From assembly GCA_018241325.1 (NCBI GenBank), contig JAFEEB010000019.1, positions 95,779 to 128,823 of the forward strand: a DNA stretch of 33,045 nt, in the 5' to 3' direction. This document shows, in pieces, positions 8,486 through 32,703 of this stretch (position 1 is the stretch's first letter; each line of letters opens with the position of its first letter). The notes under the pieces were generated by a model. It ran no database searches. It was not told the origin of the DNA and saw only the letters and a list, made by a program, of their open reading frames with translations. The DNA comes from Pseudomonadota bacterium (lineage in GTDB: Bacteria > Pseudomonadota > Gammaproteobacteria > Burkholderiales > Burkholderiaceae_C). The translations under genes were made by a program, and so were the position numbers.

Positions 8486-10705
8486 ATGTCCGTTTTGCGA
8501 TCGATTGCCCGGGTTTTGTTTGCTACAATTATTGTAGCTGTCGGCGCTTTACCCATAGGCGCTACAGCCCAGATCGGCCAAAAATCCGAGATGCACACCG
8601 AGCAGGTGCAGGCGCGCCTGCTGGCCTGGGCGCCGCAGGGTGTTCCCAGCGGCGCGCAGGCCACGGGCCAGCCGGGCACCGTCTGGGTGGGCCTGCAGCT
8701 CACGCATCAGCCGCACTGGCACACCTACTGGAAGAACTCGGGCGACTCGGGCCTGCCCACCGAGCTGCAATGGACGCTGCCGCCCGGCGTGATGGCCGGC
8801 GACATCGCCTGGCCGGTCCCCAAGAAAATCCCCATCGGCACCCTGGCCAACTATGGCTACGAGGGCACGGTGCTGCTGCCGGTGCCGCTCATCGTCACGC
8901 CCGAATACAAGCCCGGCCCGCTGGTGGACGCCATGGACATCGGCCTGAAGGCCAACTGGCTGGTGTGCCGCCAGGAGTGCATTCCGCAAGAAGGCGAGAT
9001 GACCCTGCGCCTGCCGCTGCGCAGCTCCACCGCGCTGGACGGTGCGGCCTTCGAGGCGGCGCTGAAGGCCCAGCCCACCGATTTGAATGGCGCGCAGGCC
9101 GTGCAGGTCGCCGGAGAACGGCTGCACCTGCGCGTGTCGGGGCTGCCTGAATCGGCGCGCGGCCAGACGCTGGAGCTGTTCCCGGAGACGCCCAACGTCG
9201 TGCTGACCGCCGCCACCATGGGCGACGCACCGGGTCCCCGCACCTGGGTGCAGCGCTGGGACGGCGCGGTGTGGACGGCCGACGTGCCGCTCTCGCCCGA
9301 GCGCGCCGACAGCCCGGCCGCGATGGCCTTTGTCCTGGCGGCCGGCTCACGGGGCTGGCGCCTGGACGCGCCGGTCACCGGCGCCTGGCCCGCCCTGGCG
9401 CCGGTGACCGGCATGTCCCCGGCGCTGGAGGCGGCGCTGTCCGCCAACGCCGCAGCCCGGGCGCTGCCAGCGCCACCGCAAGCCGTGCCGGTGGGCACCT
9501 TCGCCTGGGCGCTGCTGGGTGCCTTGCTGGGTGGGCTGGTGCTCAACCTCATGCCCTGCGTGTTTCCCATCCTGGCCATCAAGGTGCTGGGCTTTGCGCA
9601 GCACGGCGACGACCGGCGCGCGCATCGCGTCAGCGGCCTGGCCTACAGCGCCGGCGTGGTGCTGTCCTTTCTGGCGCTGGGCGCGCTGATGCTGGCGCTG
9701 CGCGCGGCCGGCCAGCAGCTGGGCTGGGGCTTTCAGCTGCAGTCGCCCGCGGTGGTGGCGCTGCTCGCGACCTTGTTCACGGTCATCGGCCTGAACCTGG
9801 CCGGGGTGTTCGAGTTTGGCCAGTTCCTGCCCAGTCGCGTCGCCACGCTGGAGCTTCGCCATCCGGCGCTCAATGCCGGGCTGTCCGGCGTGCTGGCGGT
9901 GGCCGTGGCCTCGCCCTGCACGGCGCCTTTCATGGGCGCCTCGCTGGGCCTGGCCGTCGGTTTGCCGCCCGCGCAGGCACTGGCCGTTTTTGCCGCCATC
10001 GGCGCCGGCATGGCCCTGCCCTATCTGGCCGCCAGCTGGTGGCCGGCGGTGGCGCGCGCACTGCCCCGGCCCGGCGCGTGGATGGAGGTGTTCAAGAAGT
10101 TCATGGCCTTCCCCATGTTCGGCACCGCCGTGTGGCTTTTGTGGGTGCTGGGCCAGCAAAGCGGCATCGACGGCGCGGCGGCCCTGCTGGCGTTGCTGGT
10201 GTTGCTGGCCTTTGCGCTGTGGGCGCTGGGCCTGGCCGGGCGCGCGCGCTGGGTCGTGGGCGTGCTGGCGGCCGTGCTGGTGGTGCTGGCGCTGCCCGGC
10301 CTGGCCCCCCACGTCGTCGCGCCCCCGCCGCCGACCACCGCGGGCAGCGCGCAAGCGGGCGAACGCTGGCAGCCCTGGTCAGCCGCCCGCGTGCAGGCGC
10401 TGCTGGCCGAGGGCAAGCCGGTGTTCGTCGACTACACCGCTGCCTGGTGCGTGACCTGCCAGTACAACAAGAAGACGACCTTGGCCAACACCGAGCTGCT
10501 GGCCGCCATGGATGCCGCCCGCGTGCAAACCTTGCGCGCCGACTGGACGCGCCGCGACGCCGCCATCAACGCCGAGCTGCAAAAACTGGGCCGCAGCGGC
10601 GTGCCGGTGTATGTGCTGCTGGCGCCGGGGCAGGCGCCGGTGGTGTTTTCCGAGGTGCTGAGTGCGGCCGATGTCAAGGACGCGCTGGCGGCACTGAAGT
10701 CGTAG
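8486..10705 (+). CDS. dsbD: Protein-disulfide reductase DsbD, ScsB-like N-terminal domain
   Basis: A 739-residue inner-membrane thiol transporter that passes electrons from cytoplasmic thioredoxin to periplasmic thiol proteins. Signal peptide: residues 1-29, most of it encoded by an R58 repeat copy. The periplasmic N-domain (about 35-320) has HWHTYWKNSGDSGLPTELQW and a Cys161-x3-Cys165 pair (VCRQEC), which is the ScsB type rather than classical E. coli DsbD alpha. The membrane core of about eight helices contains NLMPCVFPI (Cys358) and ASPCTAPF (Cys478), the redox pair of the DsbD/CcdA fold. The C-terminal thioredoxin-like domain has AAWCVTCQYNKK (Cys655, Cys658). The assigned ATG gives a complete signal peptide. 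A 431-bp block of repeats follows before the convergent ohr gene. Partners are not encoded in the window. Confidence 0.92.
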   Translation: MSVLRSIARVLFATIIVAVGALPIGATAQIGQKSEMHTEQVQARLLAWAPQGVPSGAQATGQPGTVWVGLQLTHQPHWHTYWKNSGDSGLPTELQWTLPPGVMAGDIAWPVPKKIPIGTLANYGYEGTVLLPVPLIVTPEYKPGPLVDAMDIGLKANWLVCRQECIPQEGEMTLRLPLRSSTALDGAAFEAALKAQPTDLNGAQAVQVAGERLHLRVSGLPESARGQTLELFPETPNVVLTAATMGDAPGPRTWVQRWDGAVWTADVPLSPERADSPAAMAFVLAAGSRGWRLDAPVTGAWPALAPVTGMSPALEAALSANAAARALPAPPQAVPVGTFAWALLGALLGGLVLNLMPCVFPILAIKVLGFAQHGDDRRAHRVSGLAYSAGVVLSFLALGALMLALRAAGQQLGWGFQLQSPAVVALLATLFTVIGLNLAGVFEFGQFLPSRVATLELRHPALNAGLSGVLAVAVASPCTAPFMGASLGLAVGLPPAQALAVFAAIGAGMALPYLAASWWPAVARALPRPGAWMEVFKKFMAFPMFGTAVWLLWVLGQQSGIDGAAALLALLVLLAFALWALGLAGRARWVVGVLAAVLVVLALPGLAPHVVAPPPPTTAGSAQAGERWQPWSAARVQALLAEGKPVFVDYTAAWCVTCQYNKKTTLANTELLAAMDAARVQTLRADWTRRDAAINAELQKLGRSGVPVYVLLAPGQAPVVFSEVLSAADVKDALAALKS
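8524..8581 (+). repeat. R58 dispersed repeat, copy encoding the DsbD signal peptide
   Basis: This copy aligns over 58 nt without gaps to 32642-32699 with 39 identities by hand count, including GCGCTTT, GGCGCTACAGCC and GGCCAA. It covers dsbD codons 13-32, so the hydrophobic core and the signal-peptidase region (AVGALPIGATAQIG) are repeat-encoded. The sequence GCTACAAT-T-ATTGTAGC, overlapping its left end, forms a perfect 8-bp palindrome. Confidence 0.75.
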
Positions 10706-10760: not shown

Positions 10761-10821
10761 AACCCCAAAGAGCCGAACGGCCGCGGAGCAGGCCAAGTGA
10801 GCGATCGCCGTGGCCGGGGCC
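10761..10821 (+). repeat. Dispersed ~61-nt GC-rich repeat, copy 2 of 2
   Basis: Partner of 4539-4599, sharing GGCCGCGGAGCAGGCC and CCGTGGCCGGG exactly in an ungapped alignment. It begins 55 bp after the dsbD stop and is the first of three repeat units filling the 10706-11136 gap between dsbD and the convergent ohr gene. No coding content seen. Confidence 0.6.
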
Positions 10822-10856
10822 TCTCGGGTCTCTGGCGATGCCCCGGCGAGCGGGCT

Positions 10857-11019
10857 GAGAGGCTGAGAGTCTTTTGTTCATGCCCGCTGATCACGCCCAA
10901 ACGCACCCACTCGGCGTTGCAAATGCTCGCCGTAGCCCGAGCTACGACTGCGCTTTGCGCCTTGATTGGGCGCGTTTGGACGCGCTCCTCGGGCACGCTC
11001 AAAAAACTCTCAGCCTCTG
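10857..11019. repeat. 163-bp imperfect palindrome with ~30-bp inverted ends
   Basis: The left arm (10857-10886, starting GAGAGGCTGAGAGTCTTTTG) is the inverted match of the right arm (10990-11019, whose complement starts CAGAGGCTGAGAGTTTTTTG). Both arms end inward in TGCCCG. The centre contains a nested hairpin CGTAGC-CCGA-GCTACG at 10931-10946 and further imperfect pairing outside it. It lies between convergent dsbD and ohr, so it could end transcription from both sides, or be a non-autonomous mobile element; no target duplication is obvious. Confidence 0.6.
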
Positions 11020-11130
11020 AGGTCTGCGGCTCCAGACCTGCCTGCGCAGGTCTGGACAGGCCGAAGGGCCGCCGCCTCTGGCGGCGAGCACCCGGCGCCA
11101 CATCGCGAAGCGAGTGGAGGCTGGGGGTGT
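11020..11130 (+). repeat. R156-family repeat, intergenic variant with perfect 10-bp hairpin
   Basis: It shares CTGCGGCTCC, GGACAG-CCGAAG and GCCTCTGGCGGC, in the same order and spacing, with the copies inside the carboxylase alpha and acyl-CoA dehydrogenase genes. The hairpin at 11032-11055 is CCAGACCTGC-CTGC-GCAGGTCTGG, a perfect 10-bp stem with a 4-nt loop. The left end of the full element is missing, replaced by the palindrome at 10857-11019. The right end (GGCTGGGGGTGTTTTG) resembles the AGCGTGGGGGCA end of other copies and stops just before the ohr stop codon. Confidence 0.7.
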
Positions 11131-11136
11131 TTTGTT

Positions 11137-11556
11137 TCAGACCACGGTCAGCGTGACCTCGATGTTGCCGCGCGTGGCGTTGGAGTAGGGGCACACCTGG
11201 TGCGCGGCCTGCACCAGTTGCTCGGCGGCGGCGCGCTCCATGCCGGGCAGGCTGATGCGCATGCGCACCGCGATGCCGAAGGCGTTGGGGATCGGTCCCA
11301 GGTCCACTTCGGCGTCGATGGACAGGTCGGCCGGCAGCGCCGTCTTGGTGCGGCCCGCCACGGCCTTCATCGCACCGATGAAGCAGGCCGAATAGCCGGC
11401 CGCAAACAACTGCTCGGGGTTGGTGCCGGTGCCGCTGGTGCCGGGCGAGCTGAGCTTGACGTCCAGCCGGCCGTCGTCGGTGCGCGAGGCGCCGTCGCGC
11501 CCGCCGGTGGTGTGGGCGTGGGCGGTGTAGAGAACCTTGTCGAGTCGGGTGGGCAT
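11137..11556 (-). CDS. ohr: Organic hydroperoxide resistance protein (Ohr subgroup of OsmC family)
   Basis: A 139-residue thiol peroxidase that reduces organic and fatty-acid hydroperoxides in the cytoplasm, usually with lipoylated protein as reductant. [11 protein letters not shown] holds the peroxidatic Cys58, and [12 protein letters not shown] holds the resolving Cys122; both motifs are those of Ohr rather than OsmC proper. The N-terminal [22 protein letters not shown] is the standard Ohr beginning. The ATG is preceded by AAAGGAAAGG, a good ribosome-binding site, so an ATG 11 codons upstream is not used here. No ohrR-type regulator is adjacent. The crotonase gene lies 90 bp upstream on the same strand. 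Confidence 0.93.
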
Positions 11557-11646
11557 GGCCTTTCCTTTGGGGAGCGTTGCGAAAGACATGCATCATGCCT
11601 GCGATCGGGATCGGCTGCCGCAGCCGCGCGCTGGCCGCGGCAGGCG

Positions 11647-25134: not shown

Positions 25135-25268
25135 CCGGACGCAGAGGACGCAGAAATTACGCAGAGAACGCAAAAAATTCGAAGAGGATTGTGATTCAAG
25201 GCCGGGGCACAAAGAATTTTTGGATTTTTTTGCGTCCTTTGCGACTCCTTTGCGTCCTCTGCGTCCGG
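25135..25268. repeat. Long inverted repeat with ~45-bp arms built of GACGCAGAG-like units
   Basis: The left arm (25135-25180) begins CCGGACGCAGAGGACGCAGA, and the right arm (25224-25268) ends with the inverted match CTTTGCGTCCTCTGCGTCCGG-like sequence. Each arm consists of near-repeats of a GACGCAGAG unit. The 176-bp gap between carboxylase beta and the first acyl-CoA dehydrogenase is almost entirely this element. In RNA the arms would pair into a long stem within the polycistronic message. Confidence 0.75.
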
Positions 25269-26599: not shown

Positions 26600-26620
26600 G
26601 ACTGACCGCATGGAGGCGGT

Positions 26621-26783
26621 CGATGAAGCCGCGAGCACAGACATGAAAAAAATCCTCATCGCCAACCGCGGCGTTCATGCCGCAGGCATGGCCAAGCAAA
26701 TGGCCCGTGCACGCGCAGCGTGCGAGCGGGCGATGAAGCCGCGAGCACAGACATGAAAAAAATCCTCATCGCCAACCGCGGCG
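26621..26783 (+). repeat. Perfect 53-bp direct duplication of the carboxylase alpha start region
   Basis: 26621-26673 and 26731-26783 are identical over 53 bp: the upstream CGATGAAGCCGCGAGCACAG, the ATG and the first ten codons plus one base. The period is 110 bp. The 57-bp spacer contains a hairpin GCACGC-GCA-GCGTGC at 26709-26723. The second copy continues into the intact gene; the first continues into a short open frame. Confidence 0.9.
26643..26756 (+). other. 37-codon leader reading frame made by the duplicated gene start
   Basis: Starting at the ATG of the first duplicate, the frame shares the first ten residues with the carboxylase alpha subunit (MKKILIANRG) and then reads VHAAGMAKQMARARAACERA and a short tail. 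It stops at TGA 26754-26756, overlapping the true start codon at 26753-26755 as ATGA. It is either an accidental by-product of a duplication or a translated leader that couples ribosomes into the gene. No strong ribosome-binding site is seen before either ATG. Confidence 0.6.
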
Positions 26784-28924
26784 AAATCGCCCGCCGCGTC
26801 ATCGCCACCGCGCACCGCATGGGCATTCAAACCGTCGCGGTGTATTCCGACGCCGATGCCAATGCCCTGCATGTGCGTGAGGCCACCACGGCCTATGCGC
26901 TCGGCGGCAATGCGTCGGCCGACAGCTATCTGCGCGTGGACAAGCTGCTGGCCGCCGCCAAGGCCACCGGTGCCGACGCGGTGCACCCCGGCTACGGCTT
27001 CCTGAGCGAGGATGCGGGCTTTGCGCAAGCGGTGCAGGACGCCGGCTTGATCTGGATCGGCCCGCCGCCGGCGGCCATTCGCGCGCTGGGCGACAAGGCC
27101 GCGGCCAAGGCGCTGGCCGCCCAGCAGGGCGTGCCCTGCCTGCCGGGTTATGCGGGCAGCGACCAGAGCGAGCAGCGCTTTGCGACCGAGGCCGCCAAGA
27201 TCGGCTTTCCCGTCATGGTCAAGGCCGTGGCCGGTGGCGGCGGGCGCGGCATGCGCCTGGTCACCGTGGCGGGGCAACTGGCGCAAGCCATGACCAGCGC
27301 GCGCTCCGAGGCGCTGGCCGGCTTTGGCAATGGCGACTTGCTGATGGAGCGCGCCGTCATGCACCCACGCCACGTCGAGGTGCAGGTGTTTGCCGACACC
27401 CACGGCAACGCCGTCCACCTGGGCGAGCGCGACTGCTCGGTGCAGCGGCGCCACCAGAAGATCATTGAGGAGGCGCCCAGCCCGGCCGTGTCGCCCGAGC
27501 TGCGTGCGCGCATGGGCCAGTGCGCGGTGGCGCTGGCGCAGGGCGCGGGTTATGTTGGCGCGGGCACGGTGGAGTTCCTGCTGGAGGAATACGACATGAG
27601 CGCCGCCGGGCCGCCCCAAGGCGCGAGCGCCCCCTCGGGGCTGAGGGCTGCGGCTCCCGATTCGCCAGTGCGAGTCGGGACAGCCCGAAGAGGAGTCGCC
27701 TCTGGCGGCTCCGCGGCCTGCAAGGCCAGCGAACCACGCGCAGCGGGGAGCGTGGGGGCACGATTTTTCTTGATGGAGATGAACACCCGCCTGCAGGTCG
27801 AGCACCCGGTGACCGAAGCCATCACCGGACTCGATCTGATGGAATGGCAAATCCGCGTCGCGCGCGGAGAGCCGCTGCCGTTGAAGCAAGATCAGATCAA
27901 GTTGACTGGCCACGCCATCGAAGTGCGCCTGTGCGCCGAAGACGAAAACTACGTGCCGCACGCCGGCCGCATCGTGCATTTCAGCGCGCCGCCAGCCAGC
28001 CAGTTTGAGCGCGCGCCGGTGCGCTTCGACCACGCCATCGCTGCCGGCGGCGAAGTCTCGCCTTTCTACGACGCCATGCTGGGCAAGCTGATCGTGCATG
28101 CGCCCACGCGCGCCGAAGCCATCGATGCGCTGATCGGCGCGCTGGCGCAGACCGAGGTGCTGGGCCTGCCCACCAACCGTGCATTCTTGATGGAGTGCCT
28201 GGATGACGCGCGCTTCCGACGCGGCGAAGCGCTGATTTCGTTCTTGGCCGAACACGGCGACGCCTTGCGTGAATCGCTATTGAAAAAAGAGCGATCGGCG
28301 CATGACCACTGTGCGCTGGCGGCCGTTTATCCGCAAGGCACGGGCGAGTTGCCCTGCGCCTTTGCTGCCCCCTGGCGGCTGGCGCATCGCGGCGACGTGG
28401 CGGCCCTGGCCGTGCGCCCGGTCGCGGGCGGCCTGCAGGTGCAGGGCGAGGCCGCGCGCACGATCCATCTGCGCCCGCTGGCCGACGGCGCCGTGCAGTG
28501 CCGTGAGGGCGGCATCACGCGGCGCGTGCGCGCCGTGGCCGCCCCGACGCCCAACGCACCGCGCCGCTGGCACGCCCAGGCGGGCGGCGTGGACTGGTGG
28601 TTCGATGATGAGTCCTTTGACCCGGTAGCCGGCGCCGGACAAGCGCAAGCAGCTACAGAATTGAAAGCGCCGTTCAACGGGAAGGTGGTGCGCGTGGCGA
28701 GCGCGGCGGGCCAGGCCCTGAAGGCGGGCGAGACGGCGGTGGTGATCGAATCGATGAAACTGGAGCACAGCGTCTCGCCGCGTGCTGATGTGACCGTGGC
28801 CGAGGTGCTGGTGGCCGACGGGCAGCAGGTGACGCCGGGGCAGGTGCTGCTGCGCTTCGAGGTGCCGACGAAAGGCCAGGGCGACGCGCAAGCCGAGCCG
28901 GTCGAACAAGGAGCGCCAGGGTGA
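26753..28924 (+). CDS. Acyl-CoA carboxylase alpha subunit (biotin carboxylase + biotin carrier)
   Basis: A 723-residue subunit that carboxylates its own biotin with ATP and bicarbonate and hands it to the beta subunit. Biotin carboxylase domain: MKKILIANRGEIARRVI, HPGYGFLSEDAGFA, VKAVAGGGGRGMR, the Glu of GAGTVEFLLEE, and MEMNTRLQVEHPVTE (from Met341). The biotinyl domain at the C-terminus has VIESMKLEHS with biotin-accepting Lys669. Residues about 283-335 are an R156 repeat-encoded insert falling in the short beta hairpin between the two metal-ligand motifs (E. coli AccC Glu276 and Glu288 regions); the frame is intact on both sides. A second, small repeat piece (R58 half) encodes the linker before the biotinyl domain. 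The start is the second copy of a 53-bp duplication. Its stop overlaps the next gene (GTGA). Confidence 0.9.
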   Translation: MKKILIANRGEIARRVIATAHRMGIQTVAVYSDADANALHVREATTAYALGGNASADSYLRVDKLLAAAKATGADAVHPGYGFLSEDAGFAQAVQDAGLIWIGPPPAAIRALGDKAAAKALAAQQGVPCLPGYAGSDQSEQRFATEAAKIGFPVMVKAVAGGGGRGMRLVTVAGQLAQAMTSARSEALAGFGNGDLLMERAVMHPRHVEVQVFADTHGNAVHLGERDCSVQRRHQKIIEEAPSPAVSPELRARMGQCAVALAQGAGYVGAGTVEFLLEEYDMSAAGPPQGASAPSGLRAAAPDSPVRVGTARRGVASGGSAACKASEPRAAGSVGARFFLMEMNTRLQVEHPVTEAITGLDLMEWQIRVARGEPLPLKQDQIKLTGHAIEVRLCAEDENYVPHAGRIVHFSAPPASQFERAPVRFDHAIAAGGEVSPFYDAMLGKLIVHAPTRAEAIDALIGALAQTEVLGLPTNRAFLMECLDDARFRRGEALISFLAEHGDALRESLLKKERSAHDHCALAAVYPQGTGELPCAFAAPWRLAHRGDVAALAVRPVAGGLQVQGEAARTIHLRPLADGAVQCREGGITRRVRAVAAPTPNAPRRWHAQAGGVDWWFDDESFDPVAGAGQAQAATELKAPFNGKVVRVASAAGQALKAGETAVVIESMKLEHSVSPRADVTVAEVLVADGQQVTPGQVLLRFEVPTKGQGDAQAEPVEQGAPG
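27605..27760 (+). repeat. R156 repeat, full-length copy inside the carboxylase alpha gene
   Basis: 156 nt (52 codons), read in frame as part of the biotin carboxylase domain. Ends: GCCGGGCCGCCCCAAGG and AGCGTGGGGGCA. The central hairpin at 27656-27679 is CCCGATTCGC-CAGT-GCGAGTCGGG (10 pairs, one G-T). The inverted copy at 29463-29619 matches it over nearly the whole length except in the hairpin stem. Confidence 0.9.
28640..28668 (-). repeat. R58 repeat, partial copy in the linker before the biotinyl domain
   Basis: ACAAGCGCAAGCAGCTA followed by AATTGAAA matches the conserved right half of the R58 copies (as read in 24284-24341). The left half is not recognisable. It encodes GQAQAATELK in the flexible linker just before the biotinyl domain, where extra residues should be tolerated. 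Confidence 0.65.
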
Positions 28925-30312
28925 CCGACATGACCGATGCCGAACTGCGCGAAGCGCGCATCGCGCTGGCGGACCTGGTCGAGCGCTTTGCGCGCACCGA
29001 GATCGCGCCCAAAGTGACCGCCTGGGACGCCGCGGGCGAATTCCCGCGCGCGCTGTACCGCCGTGCGGCCGAGCTGGGCCTGCTGGGCATGGGCTACCCC
29101 GAAGAATTCGGCGGCACGCCGGCACCCCACGCCCTGCGCATGGTGATGTGGCGCGCGCTGTGCCGCTTTGGCACCTCGGGCGGTGTGCAGGCCAGCCTGC
29201 TGTCGCACAACATCGGCCTGCCGCCGGTGGTGGCGCTGGCGAGCGACGCGGTCAAGCGCGAGGTCGTGCCGCCCGTGCTGGCGGGCGAAAAAATCGCCGC
29301 GCTGGCCATCACCGAGCCCGGCGGCGGCTCGGACGTGGCGGCGGTGCGCACCACGGCGCGGCGCGAGGGCGATGAATACGTGGTCGATGGCGAGAAGATT
29401 TTCATCACTTCGGGCATGCGTGCCGACTGGATCACGGTGGCCGTGCGCACCGGAGAAATCGATGCCCCCACGCTTCCTGCTGCGCATGGTGCGCTGGCCT
29501 TGCCGGCCGCGGAGCCGCCAGAGTCGGCTCCTCTTCGGGCTGTCCAGGCTCGCGCAGGCGAGCCCGGAGCCGCAGCCCTCAGCCCCGAGGGGACTGCCGC
29601 CACCTTGGCGCGGGGCGGCGGCGGCGGCGGCGTCAAGGGCGCCGGCGGCATCAGCCTGCTGCTGGTGCCGGGCGACAGCAAGGGCTTGTCGCGCACGCGC
29701 CTGGACAAGATGGGCTGGCTGTGCTCCGACACCGCGCAGCTGCGCTTTGACGGCGTGCGCGTGCCGGCGCGTTACCTCTTGGGCGCCGAGGGTGCGGGCT
29801 TCAAGGCCATCATGGGCAACTTCAACGGCGAGCGTTTCGGCATCGCCGCCGGCGCCCTGGGCTTTGCCGAAGCCTGCTACGACGAAGCCCTGGCCTGGGC
29901 GCAGCAGCGCAAGGCCTTCGGGCAGGCGCTGGTGGGCCATCAGGTGATTCGCCACAAGCTGGTGGACATGCAGCAGCACATCCGCGCCACGGCGGCGTGG
30001 CTGGAGCAGCTGGCGGCGCGCGCGGACGGTGGAGACACCGGTGCCGCTGTGCCGCCGGGCCGCCCCAAGGCGCAGCAGGGGAGCGTGGGGGCAGACAATG
30101 ACTGGGTCGGCGAGGTGGCCGCGCTGAAGAACCAGGCCACGCAGACCCTGCAGTTCTGCGCCGATGCCGGTGTGCAGATCCTGGGCGGCATGGGCTACAT
30201 GCGCGGCACCGTGTGCGAGCGCATCTACCGCGAGGTCAAGGTCATCACCATCGGCGGCGGCACCGAGGAGATCATGAAAGAGTTGGCCGCCAAACAGTGG
30301 GGCATTGTGTGA
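28921..30312 (+). CDS. Acyl-CoA dehydrogenase with two repeat-encoded inserts
   Basis: A 463-residue FAD-dependent dehydrogenase, about 75 residues longer than the family norm. Core blocks: YPEEFGGTPAPHALRMVMW, AITEPGGGSDVAAVRTTARR, EKIFITSGMRADWITVAVRTG, RLDKMGWLCSDTAQLRFDGVRVPA, ALAWAQQRKAFGQALVGHQV, ALKNQATQTLQFCADAGVQI and GGMGYMRGTVCERIYREVKVI. The IYEG-type Glu is replaced by IGGG, and Glu304 in FNGERF is the likely base, as in isovaleryl-CoA-type enzymes. Residues about 181-233 (between VRTGEI and the GGISLLLVPGD strand) come from an inverted R156 copy, and residues about 378-391 from a deleted R156 copy. The GTG start overlaps the stop of the carboxylase alpha gene; an ATG three codons later is an alternative. 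Confidence 0.88.
   Translation: MTDMTDAELREARIALADLVERFARTEIAPKVTAWDAAGEFPRALYRRAAELGLLGMGYPEEFGGTPAPHALRMVMWRALCRFGTSGGVQASLLSHNIGLPPVVALASDAVKREVVPPVLAGEKIAALAITEPGGGSDVAAVRTTARREGDEYVVDGEKIFITSGMRADWITVAVRTGEIDAPTLPAAHGALALPAAEPPESAPLRAVQARAGEPGAAALSPEGTAATLARGGGGGGVKGAGGISLLLVPGDSKGLSRTRLDKMGWLCSDTAQLRFDGVRVPARYLLGAEGAGFKAIMGNFNGERFGIAAGALGFAEACYDEALAWAQQRKAFGQALVGHQVIRHKLVDMQQHIRATAAWLEQLAARADGGDTGAAVPPGRPKAQQGSVGADNDWVGEVAALKNQATQTLQFCADAGVQILGGMGYMRGTVCERIYREVKVITIGGGTEEIMKELAAKQWGIV
29463..29619 (-). repeat. R156 repeat, full-length inverted copy inside the second dehydrogenase gene
   Basis: 157 nt, in opposite orientation to the host gene. Its reverse complement matches 27605-27760 almost throughout, sharing exactly CCCCTCGGGGCTGAGGGCTG, GACAGCCCGAAGAGGAG, CTCTGGCGGCTCCGCGGCC and AGCGTGGGGGCA. 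The hairpin at 29544-29567, read on the minus strand, is CCGGGCTCGC-CTGC-GCGAGCCTGG: same geometry, different stem sequence. Both strands of this repeat are thus open in the frame used. Confidence 0.9.
30054..30093 (+). repeat. R156 repeat, internally deleted 40-nt copy in the second dehydrogenase gene
   Basis: The left 20 nt GCCGGGCCGCCCCAAGGCGC and the right 20 nt AGCAGGGGAGCGTGGGGGCA correspond to the two ends of the full element, joined directly. The left end is read in a different frame from the carboxylase copy, but the right end is read in the same one (GSVGA). It lies in the C-terminal helical domain before the VAALKNQATQTLQF helix. Confidence 0.8.
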
Positions 30313-32641: not shown

Positions 32642-32699
32642 TCCTGAAAAGATAGCTGCTTGCGCTTTGTTCATGGGCGCTACAGCCTTGTTTGGCCAA
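32642..32699 (+). repeat. R58 dispersed repeat, intergenic reference copy
   Basis: It starts 1 bp after the ligase stop and runs up to the terminator hairpin. It has the clear internal symmetry AGCTGCTTGCGC / GGCGCTACAGC that gives the element a weak hairpin. The copies at 24284-24341, 8524-8581 and 1468-1525 align to it without gaps over 58 nt. It lies between convergent genes, a position where such elements may end or process transcripts. Confidence 0.8.
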
Positions 32700-32703
32700 T
32701 AAA

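Follow-up and report, generated by a model that had tools for sequence, protein, structure and literature searches.

A covarying hairpin as a probable module of a mobile palindromic repeat family in Ottowia and related Burkholderiales

What keeps a hairpin paired while the letters of its stem change from copy to copy, and to what kind of element does such a hairpin belong? The question is raised by three hairpin copies in the window (the whole 33,045-nt stretch of DNA that was analysed), which a first-pass annotation had grouped as a single repeat, R156. Each copy had been described as a 10-bp stem with a 4-nt loop, with two copies inside open reading frames, and membership of a REP/RAYT-like or IS200/IS605-like mobile system had been suggested. 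The three 24-nt centres are indeed present at the positions claimed for them (Table 1), and two copies do lie within open reading frames while the third is intergenic. The centres fold as described but are better represented as an 11-bp stem, P2, that stands upon a 6-bp stem, P1, and is set off from it by a 4-nt bulge. This bulge is CGGC in 166 of 172 distinct cores, a set collected with a pattern that requires the 24-nt centre and few flank mismatches and leaves out decayed copies and copies with indels. One G.T wobble in each of the stems at 27656 and 29544 keeps them from being perfect 10-mers. Folds place a second variable hairpin, P3, on the 3' side of P1-P2, followed in part of the copies by a short P4. 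Together these stems (P1-P2, P3 and sometimes P4) make up a module of 84-90 nt, which we call B.

Table 1. Coordinates of the hairpin modules, the repeats that hold them and the associated genes in the window
Feature	Position	Strand	Evidence
P2 centre, copy 1: CCCGATTCGC/GCGAGTCGGG	27656..27679	+	sequence, fold
P2 centre, copy 2: CCGGGCTCGC/GCGAGCCTGG	29544..29567	-	sequence, fold
P2 centre, copy 3: CCAGACCTGC/GCAGGTCTGG	11032..11055	+	sequence, fold
Module B copy 1 (P1, P2, P3, P4)	27638..27727	+	model R1 match, 107.8 bits
Module B copy 2	29496..29585	-	model R1 match, 99.9 bits
Module B copy 3, intergenic	11014..11098	+	model R1 match, 73.9 bits
A+B composite, in-frame in biotin carboxylase gene, 168 nt, 56 codons	27596..27763	+	ends from insert-free relatives; BLAST 27605-27765
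A+B composite, inverted, in-frame in acyl-CoA dehydrogenase gene	29457..29619	-	BLAST match, 85% identity
Host gene of copy 1, biotin carboxylase subunit	26720..28924	+	PF00289, PF02786, PF02785, PF00364
Host gene of copy 2, acyl-CoA dehydrogenase	28921..30312	+	PF02771, PF02770, PF00441
Repeat C (limits approximate), holds B copy 3 and inverted repeat 10855-11021	10761..11130	+	direct repeat D8, inverted repeat I2, other C copies
OsmC-like gene, stop codon just past 3' end of C	11137..11589	-	PF02566

Module B is far more abundant than the three copies in the window suggest. A covariance model built from 23 copies (22 in loci of the same genome and one in the window) matched the genome 45 times at E<=0.1, including 43 matches at E<=2.1e-4; uncertain members are the last two matches and the seven lowest-scoring copies above E 0.001 (41-46 bits). 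The covariance-model search found B in 30 of 100 genomes, this one included, all 100 belonging to its own order and searched with stricter filters that lose weak matches. All B-bearing genomes are in the same family (30 of 60, against 0 of 40 from other families). A pattern scan of named genomes gave at least 108 stretches with B, and the titles among the matches listed include Ottowia beijingensis, Hydrogenophaga, Rhodoferax, Curvibacter, Acidovorax, Comamonas, Hylemonella, Rubrivivax, Rivibacter and Azohydromonas, as well as a few metagenome-assembled genomes under other titles, such as Bradyrhizobium and Methyloversatilis; Rickettsia is not among the titles listed.

The earlier claim that both arms had changed together with pairing kept is borne out by covariation in this and in other genomes. 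Standard pairs fill 97.4% of the cells in the 23 own-genome copies (19 distinct), and cells changed on both sides number 61, compared with 18.3 in shuffles. Among 104 distinct matches from other genomes, drawn from 100 of the at least 108 named loci (L093, L103, L105, L118, L143, L169, L173 and L198 were left out), 93.2% of cells pair, both-side changes occur at 27 of 31 pairs, and both-side-changed cells number 542 against 150.8 in shuffles, in an alignment fitted to the structure. We also applied a tree-based null, a home-made imitation of R-scape with 60 replicates, to 140 distinct ungapped cores that had not been fitted. The 13 top-ranked pairs were all structural. E<=0.05 was reached by eight pairs, all from the 26 that are structural; five of them lie in P2, two in P3 and one in P1.

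Pairing in double-stranded DNA, or copying from one arm to the other, should yield G.T and A.C mismatches equally. Parsimony on the 172 cores, in which events are not fully independent, instead counted 90.7 changes from Watson-Crick pairs to G.U and 45.6 to A.C (p 1e-4). The asymmetry resides in P2 (37.3 against 8.6, p 4e-5) and P3 (39.4 against 19.9, p 0.02); P1 has no strand bias (14.0 G.U and 17.1 A.C events) and the unpaired columns, taken as a control, are likewise unbiased (39.8 and 44.1). The plus strand seems to be the strand that folds, as RNA or as single-stranded DNA, because G.U is more tolerated than A.C. Selection on the structure, as the first-pass annotation proposed, is thus supported by covariation and strand asymmetry together. 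Its alternative forms fare differently, since a symmetric cruciform, or correction between arms alone, is disfavoured by the G.U/A.C asymmetry and by the P2 loops, which are in the usual sense in 160 of the 172 cores, inverted in none and in neither sense in 12.

The same counts bear on the idea that replication produces the paired changes by switching template between the arms of the hairpin, with no selection on structure. According to excerpts of PMC8794818, template switching can create and mend hairpin stems in a single step, and it is said to account for base-pair frequencies that are asymmetric in RNA stems. Double changes are common in our cores (about 158 Watson-Crick to Watson-Crick events). 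However, arm copying treats the strands alike, which does not fit the greater tolerance of G.U; inversion of the spacer would be expected (PMC8604942, in excerpt), whereas no P2 loop is inverted; and the 4-nt bulge has been kept nearly throughout. We therefore regard template switching as a quite improbable sole source of the pattern, and suggest that it may still help supply the changes.

R156 proved not to be a single repeat, and two nested elements had been missed in it. Module B lies within A, a repeat of about 72 nt that surrounds B in R156 and also exists alone. A BLAST search of copy 1 against its own genome returned 55 matches, which comprise full composites, directly joined outer ends and lone inner parts, and A alone gave 50 matches, some of them halves of composites. 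B is also found in both orientations within a third repeat, C; among the C copies read, two are without B and one has A inside. Of 147 distinct copies of B, 138 begin immediately after a C4..G4 hairpin, one substitution being allowed. The C copy of the window also contains an inverted repeat (10855-10912 / 10964-11021; 58-nt arms, 79%) at a place that a short C-run/G-run hairpin occupies in other C copies. At G000:C73:15990-17230 (L006), A is arrayed in tandem with an 87-nt period and a short spacer of constant length. Two further repeats of the window are an inverted repeat at 25135-25183 / 25220-25268 (49-nt arms, 80% complementary) and a dispersed 50-nt pair at 8535-8584 / 32653-32702 that is 76% identical and does not resemble A, B or C.

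P0, the outermost stem of A, differs in its arms from copy to copy, yet the two arms of a copy tend to pair. Left arms across the own-genome copies share a mean identity of 42% over the outer five positions, and these positions form 3.59 pairs, compared with a mean of 2.49 and a maximum of 3.09 in shuffles (22 distinct arm pairs; copies L001-L030 and L199-L228). In other genomes the value is 3.23, against a shuffled mean of 2.14 and maximum of 2.71 (35 arm pairs). Pairing of P0 is poor in several copies, for example L025, L213 and L222. An insert in a phosphoenolpyruvate carboxylase-like (PEPC-like) gene that is common to this genome and a relative (G025) keeps the same left arm in both, which suggests that the arms are perhaps set at insertion. 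That the left arm is host DNA was unsupported at the RadA-, RND-, UvrD- and PEPC-like sites, where empty relatives were compared by eye.

Comparison with relatives reveals filled and empty orthologous sites, which supports the mobility proposed earlier. In the window, the best PF02786 stretch of the biotin carboxylase ends at residue 291 and PF02770 of the acyl-CoA dehydrogenase ends at residue 181, in both cases the position of the insert. The acyl-CoA dehydrogenase insert (residues about 180-235) is absent in six of six relatives. The closest biotin carboxylase homologues of nine relatives (L231, L232, L235-L241) are without the insert at that turn, one of them (L240) being four residues longer there. 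Other A-type inserts occupy the same place in the biotin carboxylases of G016 (L230), G024 (L234) and L184, and G028 (L233), whose homologue is more distant, has two A-type inserts. A 58-nt direct repeat (26616-26673 / 26726-26783; 98% identical, start-to-start 110) spans the start of the biotin carboxylase gene of the window.

Seven further insert sites were compared with four relatives. The HyuB-, RadA-, GcvP-, RND- and UvrD-like genes align straight across the site in all four; the UvrA-like gene does so in three, the fourth (G014) having about 18 extra residues there; and the PEPC-like insert shared with G025 is absent in G017, while G014 and G023 gave no listed match. By eye, a 12-nt direct repeat is present at the GcvP-like site and none is clear at the RadA- and UvrD-like sites. 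The inserts of the GcvP- and PEPC-like sites (L024, L203) end in GTGGGGGC and relatives show GTGGGCGCC or GTCGGCGCG at that point, so the 3' end of the insert may match its target. Using a home-made codon score trained on this genome, which also assigned gene strand and frame for the intergenic counts below and was applied to other genomes too, we found 18 of the 25 own-genome A or A+B copies scored to run in-frame through an open reading frame (two A+B and 16 A). The in-frame A copies read in the sense direction in 14 of 16 cases, tandem copies being counted singly.

Most copies of B lie between genes, and their placement there is strikingly regular. Only seven of 129 distinct B copies with context were read as within open reading frames. 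Of the remaining copies, 92 have on their 3' side a gene that is antisense to B and 21 a sense gene, the others being unassigned; on the 5' side, 41 have a sense gene and 61 an antisense one. A terminal G-run is present in 75 copies, and in 70 of them the distance from its end to the antisense gene's stop codon is 0-18 nt. In some copies that lie in neither A nor C, the upstream gene has its stop codon within a conserved CTGAGG, and the stop of the left gene was found at the CTGAGG position in five copies. L130, L151, L159, L164 and L170 have B without the C4..G4 foot, and the TGA of CTGAGG closes the upstream reading frame.

Such a tight, orientation-biased spot after stop codons could indicate a host function. 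On this reading B serves the host as an RNA element at the 3' ends of genes (a terminator, an mRNA stabiliser or an antisense RNA) and is kept because it is useful, its in-gene copies being by-products of spread; the closeness of the G-run to the antisense stop, the excess of antisense 3'-side genes and the stop codons held in CTGAGG all speak for it. Against it, the strand transcribed would for the majority of these genes be the minus strand, whereas the wobble test favours the plus strand, and in-gene copies run in both directions. No Rfam 15 family reached its gathering score across the window, and a permissive search (E<=5) of five loci returned just four sub-threshold matches, all to unrelated families. 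A host RNA element is therefore, in our judgement, an unlikely account of B.

Membership of the REP/RAYT or IS200/IS605 systems found no support in the Y1 loci, the distribution among genomes or the foot tags. The search for a transposase covered the Y1_Tnp family, and the only Y1_Tnp gene of the genome (L031 1001-1900) is flanked not by the element but by a short repeat of its own, ATGGGGTCAGATC.., which by eye belongs to a separate RAYT-like system. Across 30 Y1_Tnp loci of the genus, the model for B gave just two weak matches (E 0.099 and 0.71). B is present in 18 of 29 genomes of the genus and a Y1_Tnp match in 21 of 29. No Y1_Tnp match was obtained for four of the 18 B-bearing genomes (G016, G017, G020 and G024; completeness is 99% for G017 and G024), and seven of the 11 genomes without B have one, with G014 reaching 20 matches and no B. 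Neither GTAG nor CGTC occurs as a tag at the 5' foot of P1 or P2 in any of the 172 cores. REP/RAYT elements are, moreover, expected to be extragenic, and here both window composites lie in genes, as do many other A and A+B copies. Movement of B as a REP/REPIN-type element by a RAYT (Y1) transposase, possibly lost or missed in some genomes, would accord with the compensatory changes of REPIN hairpins (PMC3116915, in excerpt), with the frequency of Y1_Tnp matches in the genus and with weak opposite-strand model matches that adjoin B copies in two contigs. Set against the loci, genomes, tags and in-gene copies described here, we consider it very improbable. These weak matches (G000:C49:31168-31254 and G000:C19:1613-1699) possibly represent a degenerate doublet.

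Given the covariation, strand asymmetry, nesting, empty sites and in-frame inserts, we propose that B is probably a module of a modular, non-autonomous family of mobile palindromic repeats, resembling the Rickettsia palindromic elements (RPEs), in Ottowia and related Burkholderiales, whose folded plus strand would be read by its shape. B would have entered A and C, in nearly every case at a position adjoining a C-run/G-run hairpin, and A or C carrying B would have been placed at gene ends, and A with B in-frame inside genes. During movement, the folded plus strand, as single-stranded DNA or an RNA copy, may be recognised by shape, and such recognition would keep the stems paired. The moving enzyme is probably supplied in trans and seems unlike a Y1/RAYT transposase. 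It is possible, if doubtful, that an undescribed mobilisation system reads the folded plus strand with nearly any stem sequence and inserts, without a Y1 enzyme, by GC-rich hairpins, after stop codons and in-frame, with the outermost stem of A receiving new complementary arms at each insertion.

A literature search limited to titles and the starts of abstracts, and weak to that extent, retrieved no description of the B family, and a 14-nt piece of A was not found as printed text in the literature. Searches within PMC3733652 gave no mention of Acidovorax, Comamonas, Burkholderia, Delftia or Polaromonas, and those within PMC12306157 none of Acidovorax, Comamonas, Burkholderia, Ottowia, Hydrogenophaga or betaproteobacteria. 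The family varies enough to demonstrate that a folded strand is kept through changes of its letters, and makes testable both the spread of palindromes without a visible transposase and the entry of new loops into conserved enzymes.

Several known systems share part of this behaviour. The attC sites of integrons have the core motifs GTTRRRY and RYYYAAC, and we rejected them as a match because these occur in seven and none of the 172 cores, respectively. Template-switch hairpins, from excerpts of PMC8794818, resemble B in their paired stem changes and differ in the strand asymmetry and the lack of inverted loops in B. Bacterial MITEs such as ERIC, NEMIS/Correia and RUP, according to part of PMC2229807, are similar in size (about 100-200 bp), fold strongly and are in some cases fused to open reading frames, whereas no regular target duplication is apparent in the B family at the sites read by eye. 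REP/REPIN-RAYT elements, as far as the available part of PMC3116915 describes them, likewise show compensatory hairpin changes and many copies per genome; B differs in having no GTAG or CGTC at the tested feet, no link to a Y1 gene, and copies within genes. Closest in behaviour are the RPEs of Rickettsia, described in the accessible parts of PMC2229807 and PMC3733652 as short palindromic repeats found between genes and in-frame within conserved protein genes, as are those of the B family. The in-frame palindromic inserts described there for Rickettsia thus have a counterpart in other bacteria, Ottowia and its relatives, in many copies and with a nesting of modules (B in A, B in C and A in C) that is a feature of the B family.
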